From contig NC_003283.11 in the NCBI RefSeq assembly GCF_000002985.6, positions 15,563,501 to 15,627,500 on the forward strand: a stretch of DNA of 64,000 nt. The letters are read 5' to 3'. This document shows positions 7,989-46,880 of this stretch, in pieces. Positions within the stretch are counted from its first letter, which is position 1. Each line of letters opens with the position of its first letter. Source of the DNA: Caenorhabditis elegans. Taxonomy: Eukaryota > Nematoda > Chromadorea > Rhabditida > Rhabditidae. The notes under the pieces are model-generated. The model saw only the letters and a program-made list of their open reading frames with translations. It was not told the DNA's origin and ran no database searches. Made by a program: the position numbers and the translations under genes.

Positions 7989-9169
7989 ATGTCTCAAATA
8001 GCTCTCCGCGACTCTTATTCCCTATCCGTGACATCAAATGAAGCGACTGTCGTCGAAATCGTTGAAGATTTGGATTCGATGAAGCTGTAAGCGGAATAAA
8101 AGATGAAAATCAAGGATTCGAGCTCATTTTCTTTTTTTTTTATAGGTCGGGGAAGAAGCCACCATCATTTTCCGATATGCCACTCGCCGTTCTTCACAAT
8201 ATCTTGGATCACGTGAAGCCAATTGATCGGTAACTAGAACTGTATAAATTTTTCTATAAAAAATATGAATATTTCCAGGCTTATCGTTCGCAAAGTTTCC
8301 CGTCGCTTCCGTGACACCGTCGACGATCATGATCCTGGTTTCAAGGCAATGGTCGTTCTCACCGGTGCGCGCGAAGATGTCATCCTGAAATTCGACGACT
8401 TGTGCGTTTTTTATTGTCGAAATGGCGCCGGATGCTCCATCAAGTTCAATAAGCATGGAGCACTTCGCGAAAAAAAAATCAAGAACGGAAGCTATTTGAA
8501 GCTGGCTTCTGCCGACTTAAAAATGATTATCAATAATCCGAAACTTCGTCTGGAGTCTTTTGAGCTCGATTTTGTCAAGATTCCGTATACCGCCGACCAA
8601 AAAGCAAACATGGAAGTCGTTCAAATGTTGCTGAAGTCACCTAAAAAATTAGACGTCGAAAAGCTCAAAATCGTTGGATTCCATCAGGAACAAATCCCGA
8701 TGGTTCTTCAATATTTTGAAAGAGATCACATTCAAGAGCTGAACTTCGGAGGTGCCGTTTGCCTCGGACATCCTGGAAGATATGCCGAGTTGAAACAATT
8801 GAGCCATATTCAGATCCAGAGCATGAAAAAGGTTGCGGAACAAGATGCGGCGCATATCCTTGAGGCAAGTTGTGTTGGGGACAAATTTTAAATTTTGAAA
8901 AAATATATCTATTAACTTCTTGAACTAAAAAACCAAAAAATACAAAAAAATCTTATTATACCGCTTTTCAGCTTCTCAAACGCTCTGCCACCATCAAATC
9001 GATCAACATCACGTCATGTTTCGGACAGGACTTCAGTGAGGCCGTCAAAATCCTTCAGCCGAATTTCGCCAGAAGACCTAGTGGCGGCACCGACTTCTCC
9101 ATCAACGGCAAGGAATTCCATGTCGAGTTTAATGTTCAAAACATTAAAATCGAAAAGAAAGTTCGCTAA
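7989..9169 (+). CDS. F-box/FTH (DUF38) protein, F-box A type
   Basis: Predicted substrate adaptor of an SCF ubiquitin ligase: the F-box binds a Skp1-related protein and the FTH (FOG-2 homology) region is thought to bind targets. Exons 7989-8086, 8146-8229, 8279-8864 and 8972-9169 join in frame to 321 residues. The F-box is PLAVLHNILDHVKPIDR (about residues 45-62) followed by VRKVSRRFRD; the rest is FTH-like. Intron 3 begins GAG/GCAAGT, a GC-AG intron, while the paralogue has GT at the same place. Compared with the paralogue at 9609, about 20 residues are missing before the last intron. Unlike the F-box genes at 36.9-46.9 kb it has no HTH domain. It could be the gene named fbxa-95, but I am not sure. 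Confidence 0.8.
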
Positions 9170-9281
9170 TTTTCTGATTAAATTGTTATATTATAAATAA
9201 ACCTGTTGAGTATTTAGTTATACATTTTGATTATTCAAGAAAGTTATCATTTATCTATCATTCCTTACCCCATGCCTGGCT

Positions 9282-9352
9282 TCTCGCAAATTTCAAAAAG
9301 TGGGCGTGTCCGGCCAATCACGAGTGTGATTTCTTAAGCTGAGCAATAAAAC
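9282..9352 (+). repeat. Shared GTGGGCGTGTCC / AAGCTGAGCAAT upstream module (copy 2)
   Basis: Second copy of the module at 7845, again ending about 75 bases before the (broken) first exon of an F-box gene. The conserved upstream DNA shows that the tandem duplication included the promoter region. Confidence 0.6.
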
Positions 9353-9425
9353 AACTATGTTTTTTTGGCGTTTCCCGTCTTGTTTGTGCGATTTCTTTGA
9401 ATTTTTGAAATTTCAGAAGAAAGTA

Positions 9426-9530
9426 ATGCCTCGAATAGCTCTCCGCGACTCTTATCCCGTATCCGTGTCGTCAAATGGACCGAATGTCGTTGAAATCGTT
9501 GAAAATTTGAATCGATGAAGCTGTTAGCGA
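9426..9530 (+). pseudogene. Broken first exon of the second F-box gene
   Basis: The ATG at 9426 opens a reading frame matching exon 1 of the gene at 7989 (MPRIALRDSYPVSVSS against MSQIALRDSYSLSVTS). A one-base deletion in the equivalent of the GATTCG codons shifts the frame into a TGA 9 bases later, just before the old donor site. The exon can no longer be joined in frame to the F-box exon. Confidence 0.7.
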
Positions 9531-9608
9531 AATAAAATATCAAATTCAAGAATTCGAGCTCATTTTCTTTTTTATAGGTCGGAGAAGACGCCACCTTCGC
9601 TTTTCAAC

Positions 9609-10606
9609 ATGCCACTCGCCGTCCTTCACAATATTTTGGACTACGTGAAGCCAACTGATCGGTAGAACTGAATAACATTTTCCTAGAAAAAATGAATGTT
9701 TTCAGGCTTGTTCTTCGCAAAGTTTCCCGCCGATTCCGTGACGCCGTCGACGACCGTGATCCCGGCTTTAAGAATGCGACCATTCTCATCAAAGAGCTCG
9801 GAGAAATCGTTCTGAAATTCGATGAATTGTGCATTTTCTACCGCCGAAGCAACGTCGGATGCACCTTGAAGGCCTATAACTTTTCGGAAAAGACAATCAA
9901 AAACGGACATTATTTGAAGCTGGCTTCTACCGACTTCAAGATGATTATCAATAATCCGAAACTTCATTTGGAATCTTTCGAAGTTGTTTTGGGCCCGGAT
10001 TTCGAGGGAGTCGATCGAAAGAAAACTTCAGAGATCATCCGAATTATGTTGAAATCCGTGAAAAAAGTGGACGTTGGAAAGCTCACAATCACTGGATTCA
10101 TCCATGAGGAGATCCCAATGATTCTTCAATACTTTGGAAGTGATAATATTCAAGATCTGAAGATCGACGATCACATTTGCTTCGACCATATTGGAAAAGT
10201 CGTCGAGTCGAATCACTGGAAGAAGGCAAAATCCATTCATTTCATCTGGAAAAGCTGTCTTTGCCCAGTTTTCATGCATCTCACACACTTTAGTGATATT
10301 CAGATCCACATGAAAAATGTTTCCGTGCATGATGCAAACCGTATCATTCAGGTAATCTGTGCTCGGAACAGCAATTTACCTACTTATTTTACCAATTTTC
10401 AGCTTCTCCAAATCTCTGCCAACTTCAAATCGCTTAACATCACAACATGTTGCGTACAGGATTTTCTTCTTGTCGTTAAAGTTCTCCAACCAAATTTCAT
10501 CCAAAGAGTTTTTGGCAGTGGCTCTACCGACTTTGCCATCAACGGCAAGAAATTCCATGTCGAGTTTGATCTGAACAACATCAAGATCGAAAAGAAAATT
10601 CGCTAA
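9609..10606 (+). CDS. F-box/FTH (DUF38) protein, paralogue of the gene at 7989
   Basis: Exons 9609-9661, 9706-10351 and 10403-10606 join in frame to 300 residues. The F-box begins at the first residues (PLAVLHNILDYVKPTDR, then VLRKVSRRFRD) and an FTH-like region fills the rest; the last 65 residues are very close to those of the first paralogue. The start at 9609 is chosen because the ancestral upstream exon (9426) is frameshifted. It removes only the 40 or so residues before the F-box, so an SCF adaptor role is still possible, and the normal GT-AG intron and full-length FTH argue that the gene is alive. Whether it is expressed from this ATG cannot be told from sequence. Confidence 0.72.
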
Positions 10607-29961: not shown

Positions 29962-30315
29962 TTAGTTTTGAGATACTTTCTCAATCTTGAACTCTTCTTC
30001 CTCAAAACTGATGAGAAAATCGGCAGTGGAATTTCGGTAACGGATTGATCCTTCTGAACCACCTTCGTAGTCTGGCTGGAAGACTCTCGCGACCTCTTCA
30101 GGGAAGAAAAAATCGATGGCCGGGAAATATCCAAATTCGAATGTTGGAGATTTGCAGATAACCTGGAACATCTTAGTTGTATAAAACTTCAGATTTGTCA
30201 GTCTGAACTTACATCTCTAACCTTAATTGCATCTTCCGGATTAAATCTGATTAGATGAAGCTCAAATCGATCGAAGTTGTAGAGATACTCCATTGGCATC
30301 AACGTATGACTTCTC
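29962..30315 (-). pseudogene. 3' half of a split F-box/FTH gene
   Basis: Two exons: about 30211-30310 (MEYLYNFDRFELHLIRFNPE, then DAIKVRD) and 29962-30163 (VICKSPTFEFGYFPAIDFFF, then PEEVARVFQPDYEGGSEGSI, ending at a TAA). They match the two C-terminal FTH exons of the genes at 36900 and 42230 (for example IEIARVFDPDHEGDAVNILEY). The protein part expected upstream is missing: the DNA changes at 30316 into the 15-base inverted end of the 5.4 kb segment. The other half is at 35739-36231. Confidence 0.65.
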
Positions 30316-30612
30316 CACAGGTGATTCGCGGTTTGCGTGCGGCAGCCCTGAAACTGTTCGCGCACACACCCGCCACACGCGAGTCGCGAACGTTCGCAAA
30401 CTGCACATGTCTCACTCCTCTGCTGCACACACTTCGCGAACAATACATGGGTGTGCACGAAGCGTAGCGAATGGAGAGTGCGCTCCACTCGCCCGTGGCG
30501 AACCTTTATAAGCTGTAATTCGGGTTTGTAAAAAATAGAAATAGCTTCAAAAATTATTGAATATTGAACTTTTATTGCTGAATAGATAAAACAATCAGAA
30601 AATTAATATCCT

Positions 30613-35738: not shown

Positions 35739-36231
35739 CATCCAACAAAAGGCTGACAACAAGAGAACTAAGTTGAAGATTCGGAAGCTTCATAATCCAG
35801 GAGAAGTCATTCAATGCAAGTTCGTTTTGATATCGCCCATTAGCTAATGCCTTGGTATTTGTTCCAGAATGTATGGAGCATCCACTTCTTGTTTGTTCAT
35901 AAGTAACTTTATTACCAAAGTGACAAAGATGTGAAGATAATTCACCAATAACCACACCCATGCCAAACTTTTCCGAAGTTTTATCGAGCGCCTTGCGGAA
36001 ATATTCAACTCCTTTGTCTAGTTTTTCTCTGAAAAATTAATAATATCAAAAACGTCACGTTAAATTGGAATACATTGTACTTTATTGAAATAGGGCTTTC
36101 AAAATACTACGGTAGTTTAACTCAATAAGGATTGTAGTACTTCGTGATTACATAGTATCCTACAGTTCAAAAACTTACCGCTTGATGAAACTAACATTGC
36201 TAGCAACTTCTCGAATAATATCGGCTGGCAT
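35739..36231 (-). pseudogene. 5' half of a split F-box/FTH gene
   Basis: The exon 36180-36231 encodes an F-box start (MPADIIREVASNVSFIKR) with a GTAAG donor. The next exon, about 35739-36029, continues EKLDKGVEYFRKALDKTSEK and NELALNDFSWIMKLPNLQLS, matching the FTH part of the genes at 36900 and 42230, then runs into the inverted end at 35738. The HTH exon seen in its neighbours is not found upstream. Together with 29962-30315 this makes one gene broken by the 5.4 kb segment. Confidence 0.65.
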
Positions 36232-36899
36232 GTTCAGTTTGATTCCGGCTGAGAAATTGTGCACAACAGTTATTCAGTAGAAATTAGCGACAACTGTTTG
36301 TCAATTATGAATTGAGGGGACTAAAAATAGCAAGTATTCAAGAAAACGCTCACTAAAAACGTATAGTATGTATGTTGCACGTCCAGTTGGTCGTTTTATA
36401 GCCGGTTTTTATAGGCAAGTAGGCGGACTGTCAGGAACCAAAAATGTACATGTTTATTGCCCAACTTGTTACATGCAGGTGCGGCAGGTGTATTGCAATG
36501 AGCATGAGCGGCAAATATCAACAAAGAGATGCGCAAGAAAGATGAACATGCTTTGTTTCCAACGATCTTGATATAAAAACATCATGAGTTTATTATGTAA
36601 CATATGTATACATGTGGTTATCTTGAGCATCAATCTTTGTTTTTCGTAAAGGTTATCATGATACTGCAACGTGGCTTTCTTGAGGATGAGCTGCCTTTGA
36701 GCCGTTCATAATAGAACAAAACAGATCTTTCGAAGTTTTTCAAAGAAAAGCAAGGTTTTTCTGCAGTTAAGATTGAACATTTTCACCTGCCGCAAATAAG
36801 ATACAGTTATAAATTTCAATTTAGTTTATACAAAACATAATTTAATTGATATAAAACATGACAATTTATTATACAACCTAAAGAATAATTGCAAACTAT
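36232..36899. other. Intergenic, no gene recognised
   Basis: The frame at 36368-36571 contains the near-repeats GTTGCACGTCCAGTTGG and GCAGGTGCGGCAGGTGTATTG, but no domain. The stretch ends at the stop codon of the next F-box gene. Confidence 0.45.
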
Positions 36900-38845
36900 T
36901 TAAAGTGTTGGCTGATCTTCTACACTATCATCTCTTTTCTCAACTGCAAACTTATAAGCCTCGCACTGGATAACGAATCGTGAACTAGTCGTATTGTATT
37001 CCAGAATGTTGACTGCATCACCTTCATGATCTGGGTCGAAGACCCTTGCGATTTCAATGGGGTCCGTGATTAAGCTTCGGAAAATCGCCTTTTGCAAGTT
37101 GGTAGGGAAATTGTCGAGATGCTGAAAAAAGGCGCTAGAAAGTTTGTCGTAAGTTTTCCAAACTGTGTTAATTTTGTGAAAGTTTTTCAATAGTAAGAAG
37201 TTGGTCAAAAGGCAGCTTTACTTCATTTTATCAGAAATATTATTGCAGTAAAAATTTTCGCCTTGGCTATAACTTTTTAACAACCACATTTCACAACTCA
37301 CTTAACAAGAGCCGAGAGAGGGCGCCATTCCAAAATCTTTGCAACCAAAACTTGGACTAGTTATCAAAACTTACTTGTTTTATTTCTAATGCATATTCTT
37401 TTGTAAACGACTGAAGCGGAATCTCGAATGCCACCAAATGAGCCAAGTTTGCAAAAGGAATTAAAAGTTCGCAATCCCCGCAAATCTGAATAATTTTGGC
37501 ATGTTTCCATTGCGCCGACTCATAGACATCTGCATTCAACTCAAAATCACTTGAATCTCGAGAAACGTCTAGAATAATGTGCTCGATTGTTTCTGAATTG
37601 AAACAAGCAATCATGGGCTTGATTTCAGATTGATGGATTCCATTGAAAAATACAGTTTTTAAATTCGGCCATTTCAAAGTTCCAACCGTCTCGATCACCT
37701 TCTGACGGGCTTCTTCCCCAACAGCACTTGAAAATGTGACGCCGAAAATTTTAAGATGAAGCTTTGGACATTTTAGAAAGTTGGAAAAGTCGTTCAATGC
37801 CAATTCCAACTGGTTTCCTCCTATGACAGATTTTGCATAATCCTCATACTTCACAATGCAACCGCCTTCGAATTCTCGATATACAATTTCATGTTTAGAA
37901 AATTCGAGAAATGCCCAATCTCTGCACATTCGAAAACTCACTGCACTGTGAGCTACCGCATCAATTTCCGGGACAACTTTTCGCAAGATTCGGCAAACTT
38001 TTTGAAGGACCATCCTGGAAATTTCAGAGTTATTTTTTAGCATTGCAGAATATGTCCTAATATATTTTTAAGGAATTATGTTAAAAGAGGATAAATTTTA
38101 AAAATTGCAGAACGGCCAAGAAATGGGCGGAGCTTAATTTCTGTTTTTATTAACATGCTGAAATTCCAAGGTTTTTGCGTAAGCTTGATGCATATTTCCA
38201 ATTTTTTTCTAATGGGAAACGGTTTTTTAAGTTTGAAACGTTTTCGTAAAGTTGCGAACATGTGCTCAGTGAGCCCCAGGAGAAGTAGGCATGTCAGTTA
38301 AGTCCAGCTCTTTTTTGGGTCTCGCAGCGAAGATCCGTACCCATTCGCTGTGAGACCCAATAAAAGGGTGACCCTTTTTCTGTGATTCTCTAAAAATTGA
38401 CTCCGCCCACAAATTGACTTTTCCTTAGTAATCTCATAAAATTGGCAGGAACAAGCCAACTTTCTAACATTTTTGTGGGAAAGGCTATCAGGAACTTTTT
38501 GAAGTGTTTAAGACTTACTTGTCACGAAAACACAGTTCATTCAAAATCCGCTGAAGTATTTTAATTGGCATATCCGACAAGTTTTTGGGCTCCAGTCTGG
38601 AATTCATTTTTTACTTTAAACATAAATATTTTCCGATATTTAACCTACTTCTGATCATAATTCAAATCATGATTTCCTTCATAAAATCGATAAAACCAGA
38701 ACTCAAAATCTATGTAATCCATGACGTCATCGCCTAGTTTTTCGCAGAAATTCTTATAGCTTTCACGTATTGGCTTGCGGTGAAGAACTTCGTAGAGAAT
38801 GCATGATCGAATGAAAATTGGATTTTCCAGTACTGATTCGGCCAT
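36900..38845 (-). CDS. HTH/F-box/FTH protein (F-box A family)
   Basis: Exons 38649-38845, 38519-38596, 37375-38014 and 36900-37121 join in frame to 378 residues. Residues 1-65 are the mariner-type helix-turn-helix (SCILYEVLHRKP, FEFWFYRFYEGNHDL), residues 66-91 the F-box (LSDMPIKILQRILNEL), and the remainder the FTH/DUF38 region (QLELALNDFSNFLKCPKLHL, EIARVFDPDHEGDA). Predicted SCF ubiquitin ligase adaptor; the HTH role in these proteins is unknown. The start is fixed by a TTCGTTTAG acceptor two bases before the ATG. The gene at 42230-46880 has exactly the same four exon lengths (197, 78, 640, 222), so the two are recent duplicates. Confidence 0.85.
38315..38360. repeat. Hairpin TTGGGTCTCGCAGCGAA
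   Basis: The arms 38315-38331 and 38344-38360 pair with one mismatch around a 12-base loop, inside the second intron of the F-box gene (38015-38518). The GGTCTCGC/GAGACCC words also appear in the minisatellite at 19280. Confidence 0.75.
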
Positions 38846-39414
38846 TTCTAAACGAATAAAAACAAAATATGAGTCTGCCTAAAAAAAAAAAACGAAGACA
38901 ACAAAAAAGTGCAACAGCACTCTCGAAGAAAAAAGAATACGCAAATACGCAGTGGCTATTCTTGTTGGGAGGTCTTATGGAGAAGCACGAGGGAATGAGA
39001 GAAGTGCTCCAGTGACATAGAGAAAAGAGATACGAATCTGAAAAGAGGGCATGGAAAATGAGAATGCGGAGTCGTCGCGAGCACGTGAGAGGAAGGGTTA
39101 CAGGGTGAAAAAAGTCTAAGTATAGCTTGAAGGTACTATATCGTTAGTGGGAACAATGTATGAATAATCTAATAGTCCAACTCCAAAAATTTTCAAAATT
39201 TTCAGTCAAATCTTTTGGACTTTTTTTCCAGAAATGCTTAAGTTAGTCGTTGCCCATATTTGACAGTAAATATGAAAATTTCAAAGATTTTTCCAATACA
39301 TTTTACTATGATATTTGGCAACTTTAAAGTATACCGTATGACGTGTTGATTACCACCATATTTTGTTAAGAAATTACTTTTATTGCGAACAAGGAGATTA
39401 GACAACAACTGAAA
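38846..39414. other. Intergenic between two F-box genes
   Basis: No gene seen. It should contain the promoter of the gene at 36900 and the 3' end of the gene at 39415. Confidence 0.45.
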
Positions 39415-40692
39415 TCATGCAGTAAAGTTAGGAAAAATGAGAATTTCACTGTGATAAGCAAAATTAATCACAAAAACACGGTGCCTAGTGCGGTAATTAA
39501 TACGGCAGTCGAGTGGAAGCCTGTCCAAGTTTGGGTCAAACATCTGCTCAAGACCTCTGATTGTGATTGGAGAGAACTTGAATCTGCCGTATCGAAAGTG
39601 TGGAGATTCTATGAGAATCTGAAAACAAAATTACATTTTGTCATTTCTATGTGTTTGGCTTTCAAAACTATTGTGAAACGGGAACGTAGTAATGAATACA
39701 TACATATGTACATTGGTACCAATTGATATATTTCTTGGAATTTAGAATATTTGCTTCTTTAGTTGTTGTAAACAAATTTGAAATGAGTTTAGCTAATTGA
39801 AAATTAATAACAGGCCTAGACGAGGCTTAGGCTTAGACTTGGGCTTTGGCTTAGACTTAGACTTAGACTTAGTTAGACTTAGGCTTAGGCTCATACTTCT
39901 TATTTTAATTTTTCACAATTAAGCGAAATATGAGCAGCCAAAATACCTCGTTGAGATGTTACCCTTTCAAAACAAACATCTTACGTTTCGAATATCAATA
40001 ACATTTCTTCTTGAACCGTTCCAAATTTCCAGATTGACACTCGTAAAGTGAAGAAAATGCTCAAGAGGGATCCGCCCATCGACCTTCCAATACATTTTAA
40101 TGTTTTTAACCTGTAACCATTGTTCCAAACGGACAGCTTTTTCGAACCCGGGAATATCCGACTCGCGATGGAACCCCAAGATCATATGTTCAAGCGTTCC
40201 AGGTTTGAAATGAGAAAGCACTGACGCAAGTTCGTAATTGTTTTCCTTATCCCTCAAGAAGTTGCTATCAAGTTTCAACTTCTTCACATCCAACAAATGA
40301 GGCAACAATTTCAGAACCTTCTTGAGTCTTGTGCCATACTCGACGCGATATTCCTCACTCTTAATATCACATCTCATATTCATATTAAACATTCTCAATT
40401 TGAGCTTCGGATTTTGGAGAATTGCTTTTAAATCTGCCATGACAAGTTCCAAACAGTCACCACTACCAATGAGTATTCCATTCATTCTACAATCTTTCCT
40501 TATCTTGCATCCCTCTGGAGAATTGTAGTATTCCACCAAATCACCATCAATGACCAGTTTGCATTCGGATTCATCGTGAAGCGAATGGGCAGCAACACTC
40601 TTGATACTGTGGTGATTTTTATCAACAAGAGCTTCAAGCTTGCGGGAGACTCTTCGGACTATCATTCTGTAACTTATGAGGTAGAAATAGGT

Positions 40693-40727
<35 letters not shown>

Positions 40728-41602
40728 ATGCTCACCGATCCAGTACAGTTAACCCATCCAAAATATCGCTGACGATCTGTATCGGTAAGTCGACAAAAGA
40801 AGTTTGCGGTGGCTCCTCACTGAAATTCGAGCACTTTTTTGAAAGTTTTCAAAATAATTTCCCAACCTTTGAACATAATGCAATTCCTTATTTCCATGGT
40901 AGAACAGGTAGTACCAAAACTCGTAATCGCGGTATTCCATGGAGTTGGAAACAAGTCTACAGAATTTACGATACGATTCGAATATTGGTATCTCGTTTAG
41001 GGCGTCAAAAAGTATGCAAGCTCGCATTGCGACCTGGCTGTCGGAGATGTGGATTACTTTACGGGGTCTGGAAAGTATTTAGTAATATTTCGCAACCTCC
41101 CCGGTTTCGAGAGCAAAATTTTTTTAGGGATTGAGATAATTCGAGCAAAATTTCAAGCAAAAGTATAAAAACTACCATCTTCTTAGAGCAGATCTAAAAT
41201 GGTCCCGGAAATCGCCGAGACCAAAAACTAACCGAAAAACATTGCGTAGCCGTAGTGCAGTTTTTCGAAGAATCTGTATAGGAGAGCAAATTGCAGATAG
41301 CGGTTCCAATCTGAGAGAATAACAACTACAACTCACTATAGTTGGCGTTACCTCTTATCATAATTCAAATCGTGGTTTCCGCTCTCGAATCGCGAAATCC
41401 AGAACTCTGCGTCTGAAAATCTGACAATTTCATTTCCAGGAGAATGATGCTTAAGTTCCGAGAAAGTTTCTAATACGCCCTTCTTGTCGAGCACCTGGTA
41501 GAGAAGAACGGCGCGACTTGCTATTTTCATGTTATGAAGAGGAGTGGCAACCATGTTTGAGCCGTAAGTGATTGGGTTAGAGCTGTAAGAAGTGTATTCC
41601 AA
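39415..41602 (-). CDS. F-box/FTH protein with duplicated HTH-F-box module
   Basis: Six exons (41352-41602, 41233-41310, 40867-41067, 40736-40819, 39985-40666, 39415-39618) keep phase throughout and give 499 residues. Order: HTH-1 (about 28-83; ending FWISRFESGNHDLNYDKR), weak F-box-1 (84-110; SPIQILRKTALRLRNVF), HTH-2 (about 122-176; CILFDALNEIPIFESYRKFC), F-box-2 (178-204; DLPIQIVSDILDGLTVLDR), then FTH (205-499) with the C-terminal exon QMFDPNLDRLPLDCRINY. The join of exon 2 to 3 uses a strong CTTTCCAG acceptor at 41068 and is open and in phase. Alternatively the first two exons are a truncated upstream gene and the rest starts at the ATG at 41027. The last intron holds TTAGGC-like repeats, and another has a (TA)n run. 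Confidence 0.72.
39822..39892 (+). repeat. Interstitial telomere-like tract (TTAGGC/TTAGAC)n
   Basis: About ten degenerate copies of the nematode telomere hexamer TTAGGC and its variant TTAGAC, in the last intron of the F-box gene at 39415-41602. Confidence 0.88.
40694..40724. repeat. (TA)n microsatellite
   Basis: About 15 TA dinucleotides in an intron of the duplicated-module F-box gene. Confidence 0.95.
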
Positions 41603-42229
41603 AAGTGGAGCAAAATGACGGAGCTATTGGATGAAGCATGTGAGATGGTGAATACATCTGTTAACCGTGCTGGGTAGTGAGGTCCAAAAGCTCAGCTGTT
41701 ACAAAAAATAGTTGTTTGAACAGCTGTGGAAAATTTTACACATTTAAAAAATAGTTGTTTTCGGCTTCCTCATAATATTTATGGCAAACTTTCCAAACAA
41801 CTTGGGCAGCTTCTGTCTTGAAAATCGTCAGGCTTGAAAAACGAGAAAGGCGGCTAGATTAGAAAGGAGAATATGTGTGATTGTGAGACTTACATCTGTT
41901 GAAAGGAACTCGTGATACCAAGAGCGGAGGGGGTGGGCACCGAAACGTACAATTATACATCTGGCAAAAATGTCTATGTTTCATCAAATATGACCATCTG
42001 AATATACAACTTTTTATTGGAACCAGCCTTGGGTTTTTTAGAGTGATTGTTTTGTGCAGGAAAAATACAGGATAGGCTACGCCCTAAACATTACCGGGCC
42101 CCGAAAAACCCAGTCTCGAAAAAAGCTTTACCAAAAAGCCTTATTTCAATTTTTTGAAAACTCGCAAAAGTTGAGATCAAATAATTTATTCACTAAAACT
42201 ACGGTTCAAGTATTTACAGAATATTCAAT
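41603..42229. other. Intergenic between two F-box genes
   Basis: No gene seen. Sequences near 41680-41760 (AATAGTTGTTT repeated twice) are the only notable internal similarity. Confidence 0.45.
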
Positions 42230-45200
42230 TTACATAACTACAGGAATCGACTGTTTATCAGCTTTTCTCAAAATTCGAAAACTGTAAGGACCGCATTGGA
42301 TAGTATAACAGAAATTTGATGTATTGTAATCCAGTGAGTTTTCGGAGCCAAGTGCATAATCTGGGTTGAAGACCTTCCCGATTTCGATGGGGTCCGTGAT
42401 GATGCTTCGAAAAGTTCCCGATTGTATTTTGTTTGGAAAGTTGTCGAGATACTGAAAGAATTAAGCTGATTGTAAATTATTGTAATGCTCACATGATGCT
42501 CAAATTACCAAATATTATTAAAAGCTTTTCGAAAAGTTTTGGAAAATTGTTTTCATTTACATTACAATGTGGAAAAATTGTACTTTTAAACACAACATGA
42601 AAGGATAAAAAACTTATTTTTAGGTCGACGAATACCAAAAAAAAAATGAGTGAAAACTGAGTTTTCACCAATTCCGGCTCGAAATAAAAATAATTTCCAA
42701 AAACTAGCTTCAAAACACCGAATTTCATAACGAGACACTTCTAAAAAATCAGTAAAATTTGTTTATGGCGGGTCAAAAACTTGAAACTATGGCCTAATTT
42801 CAACTAAAATCCCCAATTTTCTTTTTTTTTTGTGCCACAGCCGTCGGAAAAGTTAGCACACTGCCAAGAAAAATTTGTGGGTCATTCAAAGTAAAATAAA
42901 AGAAAACATTTCAACACCTTGTTCTCTTTCGATATAATGTTAAAAACTCACATTCTTAATTTCCACTGCATATTCTCTTGTGAAGGACTTTAGTGATATC
43001 TCGAATCCCGCCAAATGAGCCAAATTTGCAAAAGGAATCGAAAGTTTGCAGTCACCACAAATTGAAATCGATTTTGCCCTTTTCCATTGTTCCAAACTAT
43101 AGACACCTGTATTCATCACAAAATCTTCTGAAACTCGAGAAACATCTAGTGAAATCGTCTGGATTGCTTCCGAATTGAGGCAACCTAAAGTGGTCTTAAT
43201 TTCCGATTGGTGAATTCCGTTAAACGTGAAGTTTCTGATTCTCGGCCATTTCCAAGAATGAAAAGTCTCGATCACCTTCTTCCGGGCGTCTTGCTCAAGG
43301 GCACTTGAAAATGTGATCGCGAAACTGTTGAGTTGAAGTTTCGGATGCTTCATCGAATTTGATAAATCATGCAGTGCCAATTCCAGCTGATCTCCTAACG
43401 GAACACCTTTGTCGACATCTTCATACTTCACCATACAACCACCATCACATCGTTGGTATTTGACGTTGTGATGAGAAAAATTCAGAATCGACCAATCTCT
43501 GCACAGTCTGAGACTTACTTCCTTATGACATATGACTTCAAAATCCCCGACAACTGATCGCAGGGTTTGGGAAACTTTATGAAGGATCATTCTGAAAAAT
43601 GTTACAGTTAGCCAATAGGTAGCCAATTTTTGGGACTCTCATTTCCGGAGATGTTTTGTGTTGTTTTTTAGTGAGAGAATTACTTTTTTCCAAAAATATG
43701 AGCCGAACAAATTAGTAAAGCGCCACCCCTTTCTTGGTATTGCAGCGCAGTATTCAAATTTTCCGGGACTTTGTGAGTTCACTTTTTGAAACAATTGTGT
43801 AGTAAAACTTTCCAGAATATGTATAGGAAATCCCCAAATAAGATCCGCTTGGATCATGCCTAATTTGGGGGGATTTGCCAAGATGTGGGAGGAGCTCATG
43901 TTTCAGAAATGTATTTAATTTGGCTTTATTTTCTGCCTCCTTCCTAAAACCCCCATCTTGCCACACACACGCGTTTTCGGTGTTCAAAAAATGTTCAAAA
44001 AATGTCCGAAAAAATGGAACAACAACTTTGAACGTTTATATCTCGGCTCTCACTGAACCGATTTTTGAAATTCTTTTTTCTCCACGTTCACAAAATATAG
44101 CGACGTGTGTTTATCTAAAAGGGGGTTGATTTTGGATCATCCTGTCGGCTCCACAAGCGGAAAACCACACCCTTCTTGTTTTTGCGCACACCGAAGTACT
44201 GGCCGAAAACCACTTTAAATTGAAGGAAAATTCGAGTTTATGTTCAAAACGTTTGAGACTCGAAACTTACGTTCTCCTTTTCAATACCTATCCACTGTAT
44301 CTAAGTTCATTGTGATATCTCTATTCGTTATTTTTAAAACGATAATTAAAGTTTTGCTAAAATTTCTGCACCTCCCCCCTTTTCTCACACACACACACCC
44401 ACCTCCCCTTTTCATATTTGGTGTGTTTTCATCCACATTTTCACCATTGTTTCGGTCATATCTCCGTTAGTCTTGCTTCTTTTTCAAAATTTTTTTTGGA
44501 AAAATGTTCATCACATCGAGAGGAAGCGGAAAATATAACTTTTTGTTTCAAAAAAGGTAAATAATAGTCTCAAAAATAGAAAAAATGAACACTTCTTTCA
44601 AACAATTTACATTTTTCCATAAAATTCACAAACTTTCCACTATCGTTCCGGTTTTTATGTTAAATTTGGAATTAATAGAATGATTTAAAATGGGATCTCA
44701 AATCACAGCTCGATCCGATCATTTTTCGCGGAGATAGGTTATTTAATTTTTGCATGTGGAAATCCAGTTTTCCTTTGTTCCTGGACAAGTTTTCAAATAT
44801 CCTTTTCATTTTATGTTTTAATTTTGATAATTTTCACTAAAGCAAGGTAGACAAACTAAATTTGGTCGGTCTTGACAACTTTCAGCACATTTGTGGAAGT
44901 TTTGAGCTTCCAGGCCTTCCCAGAAGGTGATATGTTTCAATTTTTGTTATTTTTAAAATAATAACCGCTGTGTTATTCTACTTTTTACGCCAATTTCAAA
45001 TATTATTTTATTTTTTTCAAACTTCTACTATGAGCAAAGTTATGACGAATTGAAGTCTTAGTGCATAACTCCTTACCTCTCCTCACTGCTGCATGCGTGC
45101 GGGTGGCTGGAAAATGTTTTCTTCCCAAAAAAACATAGAAAGGCACTTTAACTCTAAGAATATTCAGTTCACTTTGAACATCTATTTCAGGCATTGCAGG

Positions 45201-46880
45201 CCGAAGGCCTGCTGTGCAATTACAACTGTTTCAAGCCCAGATTGTCTGGATTAAGTGCCGCAGGCACTCTTACTCTTAGAAGACGCAGTCAACCTTAAAT
45301 CATTATACCAAGCCAGGCCGGAGGCCTGATATGCGATTACTCTTAGATAAGTTTGATTTAGCAAGCTTTTATTATTTTCAGTTTTCTAAAACAATCCCCA
45401 TTCCCGAAGGGCTGGGGGCCCACAGGCGTTCACGATTTTCCAAAAAAGTGAAATGTTTATTTTTTGGTTATTTTTCGAATTTGAAAACACCATACGATTT
45501 TGGTTTAAACACTAAATTGAAATAGAAATTTCGCTCTCTTACGATCTACGCCCTACCCACTGCTAAGCCTGGCAAGTCGCAGATTTGCTATCAACAATAT
45601 TGGAAACTGTGGGCTGGCTTTGATCCTATTCTAAGCAGAGCAGGCTGTAGGCCTGCGACGCGGTTGTTATTTACTCAAACCTAACAACCAGGTTCGAGGG
45701 CCGCAGGCCCGAACACTCTTGGAAACTATGGGCTGGCTTTGATCCTATTCTAAGCAGATATGTTATTCACTCAACCCTAATAACCAGGTTTGAGGGCCGC
45801 AGGCCCGAATACTCTTGAAAACTGTGGGCTGGCTTTAATCCTATTCCAAGCAGAGCAGGCTGTAGGCCTGCGACGTGGTTGTTATTTACTCAAACCTAAC
45901 AACCAGGTTCGAGGGCCGCAGGCCCGAACACTCTTGGAAACTATGGGCTGGCTTTGATCATATTCTAAGCAGATATGATATTCACTCAAGCCTAATAACC
46001 AGGTTTGAGGGCCGCAGGCCCGAATACTCTTGAAAACTGTGGGCTGGCTTTAATCCTATTCCAAGCAGAGCAGGCCGTATTCATGAGTTTTCCTTTTCCT
46101 TCACCGTTTTTTGTAGTTCACAGTGATGATTGAAAACACGCTTATTTTATTGAATACATTCAAATTATTCTTGAACAAAATCTCAGCCTAAGTTATTCGT
46201 ACAGTGTCGGTCCTGGAGCAATGAATCAAAGTTTAAAGAGATTTCACTTTACACAGTAAGAGCTTCGAGGAGAAGCCTCAAACTTGAATAGTCAAGTTTT
46301 CTAAACATATACCCCACTCCTGAAACAATTTCAAAGAGATTTCGAATAACCCGTTAACAGGTTCGAGGCGAAGCCGAGAACCTGCGCCAGCTACCTTGCT
46401 AATAACTTAGAGCGAATTAACCCTATCCCCATTCCCGAAGGGCTGGCGGGCCCATAGGCCCGCTAGTCCTTTAACAAAGAGGATATTCTGATTTCGATAA
46501 CTAAAAATTTTGGATCAAAATTTGAAATAGAAAATAATTTTGAAAAACTCGAAATTTACCTATCGCGAAAATCCAGTTCATTTAAAATCCTATGAAATAT
46601 TTCGATGGGCAAGTCTGACAAACTTTTGAATTCCAACCTGAAATTCATTAATTAATAAAAAAGTTTTAAAATATTAAACTTACATTCGATCATCATTCAA
46701 ATCATGATTTCCTCCATAAAATCGATAGAACCAAAACTCGAAATCCACATAGTCCATGACGTCATCGCCTAGTTTTTCGCAAAAATTCTTGTAGCTCTCG
46801 TCGATCGGCTTTCGGTGAAGAGCTTCGTAGAGAATACAGGATCGAACGAAAATTGGATTGTCCAGTACTGATTCAGTCAT
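42230..46880 (-). CDS. HTH/F-box/FTH protein (F-box A family), with a 3 kb intron
   Basis: Exons 46684-46880, 46560-46637, 42952-43591 and 42230-42451 join in frame to 378 residues. HTH: residues 1-65 (SCILYEALHRKPIDESYKNF); F-box: 66-91 (LSDLPIEIFHRILNEL then DFRDR); FTH: the remainder (QLELALHDLSNSMKHPKLQL, SISICGDCKLSIPFANLAHL, IEIGKVFNPDYALGSENSLDY). The exon lengths are identical to the gene at 36900. The intron between F-box and FTH exons has grown to 2,968 bases (43592-46559) and holds hairpin arrays, while its counterpart in the other gene is 504 bases. Splice sites are intact, so the gene is likely functional as an SCF adaptor. The start follows a CTTTTTTAG acceptor. Confidence 0.82.
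45196..46470. repeat. Array of GNA-triloop hairpins in tandem repeats
   Basis: Short GC stems closed by GAA, GCA, GGA or GTA triloops are spaced through AT-rich DNA: GCAGGCC-GAA-GGCCTGC (45196), AGTGCC-GCA-GGCACT (45254), CAGGCC-GGA-GGCCTG (45314), GCAGGCT-GTA-GGCCTGC (45640, 45855), GGGCC-GCA-GGCCC (45698, 45794, 45913, 46009), and GGC-GAA-GCC (46367). A unit of about 215 bases (CAAGCAGAGCAGGC, AACCAGGTTCGAGGGCCG, CTCTTGGAAACTATGGGCTG) is tandemly repeated between 45590 and 46080. CCCGAAGGGCTGG occurs at both 45404 and 46434. The array lies in the long intron of the F-box gene. Confidence 0.85.

Follow-up and report, generated by a model that had tools for sequence, protein, structure and literature searches.

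The gene and its surroundings

The window analysed here is a stretch of 64,000 nucleotides from Caenorhabditis elegans (NC_003283.11, positions 15,563,501 to 15,627,500), part of what is called C5 below, which we take to be chromosome V; C6 is presumably the X chromosome. On the minus strand of this window, six exons form a single open reading frame of 483 codons that starts with an ATG at 41554 and encodes, in order, an HTH, an exon at the position of an F-box, a second HTH, an F-box and an FTH domain (Table 1). All five introns have GT..AG borders, and the end of exon 1 as well as both borders of exons 2, 3 and 4 are in phase 2, so the gain or loss of either HTH-F-box exon pair would be neutral with respect to the reading frame; the frame also stays intact if exon 2 is skipped. 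A preliminary description of this gene gave it six exons in phase over 499 codons. The frame and its phases were reproduced, including the 499-codon reading, but the proposed start at 41602 is a TTG, so that the protein begun at the first in-frame ATG after it (41554) has 483 amino acids.

Table 1. Location and content of the six-exon gene, its neighbours and other two-HTH loci (window coordinates unless a chromosome or a fetched locus is named)
Feature	Location	Strand	Content
Exon 1	41352-41554	-	ATG 41554; first HTH_48 module, matched by the family profile at 41366-41527
Exon 2	41233-41310	-	place of first F-box half; 78 bases, phase 2-2; probable decayed remnant
Intron 2	41068-41232	-	165 bases; no recognisable second F-box half-exon
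Exon 3	40867-41067	-	second HTH_48 module, matched by the profile at 40881-41039; acceptor in phase 2
Exon 4	40736-40819	-	F-box first half (profile match 40750-40812)
Exon 5	39985-40666	-	F-box second half and the larger part of FTH (profile match 39991-40659)
Exon 6	39415-39618	-	FTH end and stop codon; FTH is residues 303-446 of 483 (Pfam)
3' neighbour	37381-38824	-	one HTH (38663-38824), F-box half (38518-38592), FTH (37381-38007)
5' neighbour	42958-46859	-	one HTH (46698-46859), F-box half (46559-46627), FTH (42958-43584)
17.3-Mb group, five loci	C5:17332154-17347464 and C5:17559832-17561367	+	HTH_A, F', linker, HTH_B, F-box, FTH
17.3-Mb group in fetched loci	L010:3154-9132, L011:1086-8464, L012:2832-4367	+	
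L020 two-HTH locus	L020:3736-4236 (C5:15184736-15185236)	+	two HTH exons 163 bases apart

A profile scan of the window bore out the earlier statement that the two neighbouring genes are of the single-module kind, since each contains one HTH, one F-box half-exon and one FTH. Several other pieces related to F-box genes were seen in the window. For example, an incomplete match to FTH at 35740-36000 and, at 36193-36237, a low-scoring F-box half (10.3 bits), both on the minus strand, together look like a decayed F-box gene spanning 35740-36237; at 30219-30323 (minus strand) the final part of the FTH profile is matched over a short stretch (E 0.001), which is perhaps a remnant. On the plus strand, two F-box/FTH genes lie at 8153-10345, with no HTH match nearby. 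Within the 366 bases of intron 5 (39619-39984, minus strand) there are eight CTAAG and three GCCTAA runs, which we take to resemble the nematode telomere repeat.

The F-box A2 family of Caenorhabditis is defined by an HTH, an F-box and an FTH domain (Thomas 2006, cited in Almeida et al. 2025, PMC12062965). According to the latter article, the family arose through F-box genes that recently captured a transposase HTH of mariner origin; 44 genes of C. elegans are counted as having the HTH, and the same overall architecture is reported across the family, with the HTH lying within one exon (PMC12062965). The six-exon gene shares with this family a single-exon mariner-type HTH, a weakly matched F-box split over two exons, an FTH and the same exon phases, and its mariner-type HTH (PF17906) sits upstream of the F-box, the arrangement that A2 membership requires. 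It differs in that the HTH is present twice and the F-box of the first copy is unrecognisable.

A duplicate on C6

A stretch of C6 is matched at 95-98% by two parts of the window, 36089-41552 together with 42463-42876, and the C6 copy of the gene keeps both modules, every splice site and the reading frame. The intervening sequence (window 41553-42462) is absent from C6, a loss that reaches from the exon 1 ATG upstream into an intron of the 5' neighbour and has removed both that ATG and the neighbour's last exon.

The C5 and C6 copies differ at 1 of 201 positions in exon 1, 3 of 78 in exon 2, 1 of 201 in exon 3, 1 of 84 in exon 4, 18 of 682 in exon 5, none of 204 in exon 6 and 16 of 682 in the introns; in exon 2, two of the three changed codons alter the residue. 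These counts lean towards constrained HTH exons and an unconstrained exon 2, with none of three tests significant (exon 2 versus exon 1, p 0.068; exon 2 versus introns, p 0.43; exon 1 versus introns, p 0.14). A case for selection on module 1 from these two copies was set aside, as the changes are too few to prove constraint. Identities of 89-91% for module 1 were disregarded, because those alignments extend into an intron.

Two HTH modules in one frame

In a Pfam search of the 483-residue model, HTH_48 was matched in two stretches with 62.4 bits in all (cut-off 24.1), and module 1 taken on its own scored 28.9 bits against the same cut-off. Each HTH is confined to one exon (exons 1 and 3). Chance does not explain two in-phase HTH_48 matches that both exceed a curated cut-off. 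The earlier claim of two HTH modules in a single phase-consistent frame holds.

AlphaFold was run on exon 1 and three other HTH exons from the window, and module 1 was modelled as three helices, with a mean pLDDT of 76.0 for the top model out of five and 47-61 for the remaining four. The six best PDB matches to the module 1 model were chains of Mos1 or SETMAR, the best with a probability of 0.97 and an E of 0.18 and all six with E values from 0.18 to 0.58, so that the modelled resemblance to the HTH of these proteins is suggestive only. The likeness of the gene to the Mos1 mariner transposase and SETMAR thus consists of these fold matches and the Pfam HTH_48 matches, whereas a transposase domain was not found in the gene.

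The trees and tallies reported here use 52 HTHs from the window and 20 loci; as these loci were selected for their HTH matches, the set lacks other A2 genes. An in-frame ATG lies 6-10 codons before the HTH in 26 of 44 first or only modules and in none of 8 second modules (Fisher p 0.004, a value that is too small because the 8 second modules stem from about three lineages and are not independent). Module 1 has an ATG 8 codons before its HTH, like the single-module genes. Module 2 has no such ATG: exon 3 contains no in-frame ATG upstream of its HTH, the first ATG (41027) lies inside the HTH, and the phase of the acceptor is that of internal HTH exons. Together, the ATG pattern and the phase-2 acceptor favour exon 3 as a putative internal exon.

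One credible F-box

The FTH domain (PF01827) at the C-terminus was matched with 89.2 bits against a cut-off of 22. Pfam matched the F-box once in the 483-residue model, at residues 171-206 (exons 4-5) and with 17.1 bits, below the cut-off of 20.5; the first half encoded by exon 4 scored 16.3 bits on the family profile with this gene left out. For the half-exon profile, 40 F-box half-exons that precede FTH exons were taken from the window and the 20 loci; removal of the window gene and its C6 copy left 38.

No F-box was found by Pfam in a fragment containing exon 2, which scored 0.6 bits on the half-exon profile, a value reached by 112 of 2000 shuffles of the same exon, so its F-box label could be due to chance. 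When every frame of the window was scanned with this profile, exon 2 was not matched as an F-box half at E values up to 2; the same scan recovered the F-box halves of exon 4, both neighbours and two plus-strand genes. The scan also recognised no second F-box half between exon 2 and exon 3. At best, exon 2 would be a remnant known from its place, phase and length. A protein with two recognisable F-box domains was consequently rejected as a candidate, and the protein is better described, as far as domain matches go, as one with two predicted HTHs and one credible F-box. The preliminary description had read the domain order as HTH, F-box, HTH, F-box, FTH; both HTHs, the position of the second F-box and the FTH are retained, and the first F-box is not.

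This bears on the earlier proposal that both modules are fully working, so that two F-boxes bind two Skp1-like partners or allow dimerisation. Exon 2 has the position, phase and length expected of an F-box half, and a few of its residues (LEP..LS....PI.IL) resemble, by eye, the F-box half of the 3' neighbour. Set against these similarities are the absence of a Pfam match to exon 2, its score and that of its shuffles, the absence of a second half-exon before exon 3, and the change of residue in two of the three exon 2 codons that differ between the C5 and C6 duplicates. The claim of two Skp1-binding modules thus finds no backing in these searches, and we consider two working F-boxes highly improbable.

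Origin of the two modules

Modules 1 and 2 are 35% identical, and each is nearer to HTHs of other genes: the closest to module 1 is II_1607421 on C2 (45%) and the closest to module 2 is II_13641583 on C2 (51%). Among 51 possible partners, module 2 ranks 33rd for module 1, and module 1 ranks last for module 2. The tree places module 1 together with II_1607421 (support 98/89), albeit on a branch of 1.21 compared with a median end branch of 0.13. These pairwise ranks and the tree make a recent internal duplication of the gene unlikely, so that the duplication of exons 1-2 suggested earlier as the simplest origin is not borne out as a recent event; a fusion of two A2 modules or an old internal duplication remain as candidate origins.

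An origin by tandem duplication of exons 1-2 within this gene would have been made easy by the phase-2 symmetry of both exon pairs, and a single clade of modules 1 and 2 was not rejected by an AU test (p 0.319, 54 columns). The low identity of the modules, their greater closeness to HTHs of other genes and the placement of module 1 with II_1607421, long branch notwithstanding, speak against such a duplication, which we judge unlikely, and which would be compatible with the explanation preferred below.

If module 1 were dead, transcripts would begin at about 41067, perhaps by trans-splicing at the acceptor there, and translation from 41027 would yield an ordinary A2 protein of 376 amino acids with a slightly shortened HTH. 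The corresponding 376-residue model matches HTH_48 with 34.9 bits (profile positions 5-50), the F-box with 18.2 and the FTH with 89.7, and both the lost F-box identity of exon 2 and the lost exon 1 ATG of the C6 copy are in line with a module that has ceased to function. On the other hand, a start at 41027 would fall inside the HTH, at odds with the upstream ATG found in most first or only HTH exons, and exon 1 is open over 67 codons although its branch is long: when exon 1 was simulated at 0.55 changes per base, with indels uncounted, 4.4% of runs remained free of stops. Only the runs from exon 1 are used here, since two other starting stretches already contained a stop. On balance, a dead module 1 seems rather unlikely.

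Other two-HTH loci in the genome

Closely spaced HTHs are found at other places in the C. elegans genome. Among 77 HTH-like places, which comprise matches to the module 1 and module 2 queries without four pieces matching exons 2 or 4 (two per query), at least seven same-strand pairs lie less than 600 bases apart, the next nearest pair being separated by 1389 bases. The seven are the window pair, its C6 counterpart, four at C5:17.33-17.56 Mb and one at C5:15184739/15185063. A separate HTH search, rich in transposases, was not merged into the 77 places (150 of its 262 candidates were scored), and 150 of 440 candidates were scored in a genome search for FTH. Two modules had been thought new for this family, a claim that the recurrence of such pairs weakens.

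The five loci of the 17.3-Mb group include, besides the four close pairs, one (17332154/17334288) whose modules are 1976 bases apart. Like the window gene, they carry HTH_A, an F-box-like half, HTH_B, an F-box and an FTH in phase-2 exons; they differ in having an extra linker exon, a degenerate first F-box half that still scores, and an HTH_A exon without an ATG, for which the upstream first exons are candidates only. All of these elements, the linker included, are conserved across the group. In the one locus of the group for which six exons were read, each has GT..AG borders and a length that is a multiple of three. The first F-box half of the group scores 11.6-13.2 bits on the half-exon profile, and 2 of 2000 shuffles of one such half reach its score. 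Pfam matched one model of the group with HTH_48 twice (118.5 bits), the F-box once (25.3) and FTH (88.5), so here too only the second F-box is canonical.

The group is under purifying selection in six of six stretches, first-module exons included: pooled over 5-6 copies, whose pairwise values are not independent, omega is 0.17 for HTH_A, 0.21 for F1, 0.27 for the linker, 0.28 for HTH_B (0.25 without intronic codons), 0.20 for F2 and 0.25 for the start of the FTH exon. In AU tests on 54 columns, p was 0.303 for a clade of HTH_A and HTH_B, 0.252 for module 1 with HTH_A and 0.126 for module 2 with HTH_B; shared descent of the window gene and the 17.3-Mb group is neither supported nor rejected by the latter two values.

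The L020 locus (C5:15184736/15185084) also has two HTH exons and differs from the window gene in that its HTHs are sisters in the tree (100/96), so that a genuine internal duplication took place there, and in that the rest of the 9-kb locus downstream of them yielded neither an FTH nor an F-box half. At this locus the HTH was doubled on its own.

A probable tandem-HTH variant of the A2 family

Taking these results together, the window gene most likely belongs to the known F-box A2 family and represents a tandem-HTH variant of it. With moderate confidence, we favour an A2 gene that would encode two tandem mariner-type HTHs, one F-box and one FTH, with exons 1-2 spliced to exon 3. This explanation is preferred because of the frame and phases, the double HTH_48 match, the three modelled helices of module 1 and the ATG pattern, and because the C6 copy keeps both modules and the splice sites and a comparable layout in the 17.3-Mb group is under purifying selection. 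The long branch of module 1, the deletion in C6 and the score of the only credible F-box below the Pfam cut-off count against it.

A history of the following kind would account for such a gene. An upstream HTH-F-box exon pair, symmetric in phase 2, may have been placed before the gene, either donated by a different A2 gene or copied within this one long ago, after which the upstream F-box would have decayed and the HTH been retained. In the mRNA, exons 1-2 would be joined to exon 3. The single F-box of the protein is predicted to bind SKR/Skp1, and the two unlike HTHs may form a two-part protein-binding platform for substrates beside the FTH. This role is suggested because the A2 HTH has been proposed to act as a protein-binding platform (PMC12062965). 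The same article reports that DNA binding was undetected in the A2 members tested.

A word search of the main text of that article gave no mention of doubled HTHs or two F-boxes, the searched text of PMC8665587 makes no mention of the HTH, and literature searches returned no paper on nematode tandem-HTH or two-F-box proteins. Given the loci described above, the tandem HTH seems to be a form that recurs within a known gene family and not a one-off.

A broader and more tentative possibility, which we hold to be short of probable, is that selection has favoured tandem HTHs in A2 proteins more than once: two unlike transposon-derived HTHs would have been placed one after the other in the window pair and in the 17.3-Mb group, with the HTH alone doubled at a third locus. 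One F-box would then be canonical, the first F-box would decay as a by-product, and selection would act on the HTHs, which would give a single SCF ligase a substrate platform with two sites. The best support for selected HTH doubling comes from the 17.3-Mb group, the window gene being the weaker instance.

Proteins that naturally combine two different HTHs with a single F-box would lend themselves to testing the proposal that the HTH is a platform. The five-copy group at 17.3 Mb is the better subject for this purpose, because its first module shows selection in the form of low omega; the window gene is a weaker case and is possibly decaying. Should substrates be chosen by the HTH, a protein with tandem HTHs would be expected to bind a joint or larger set of them.
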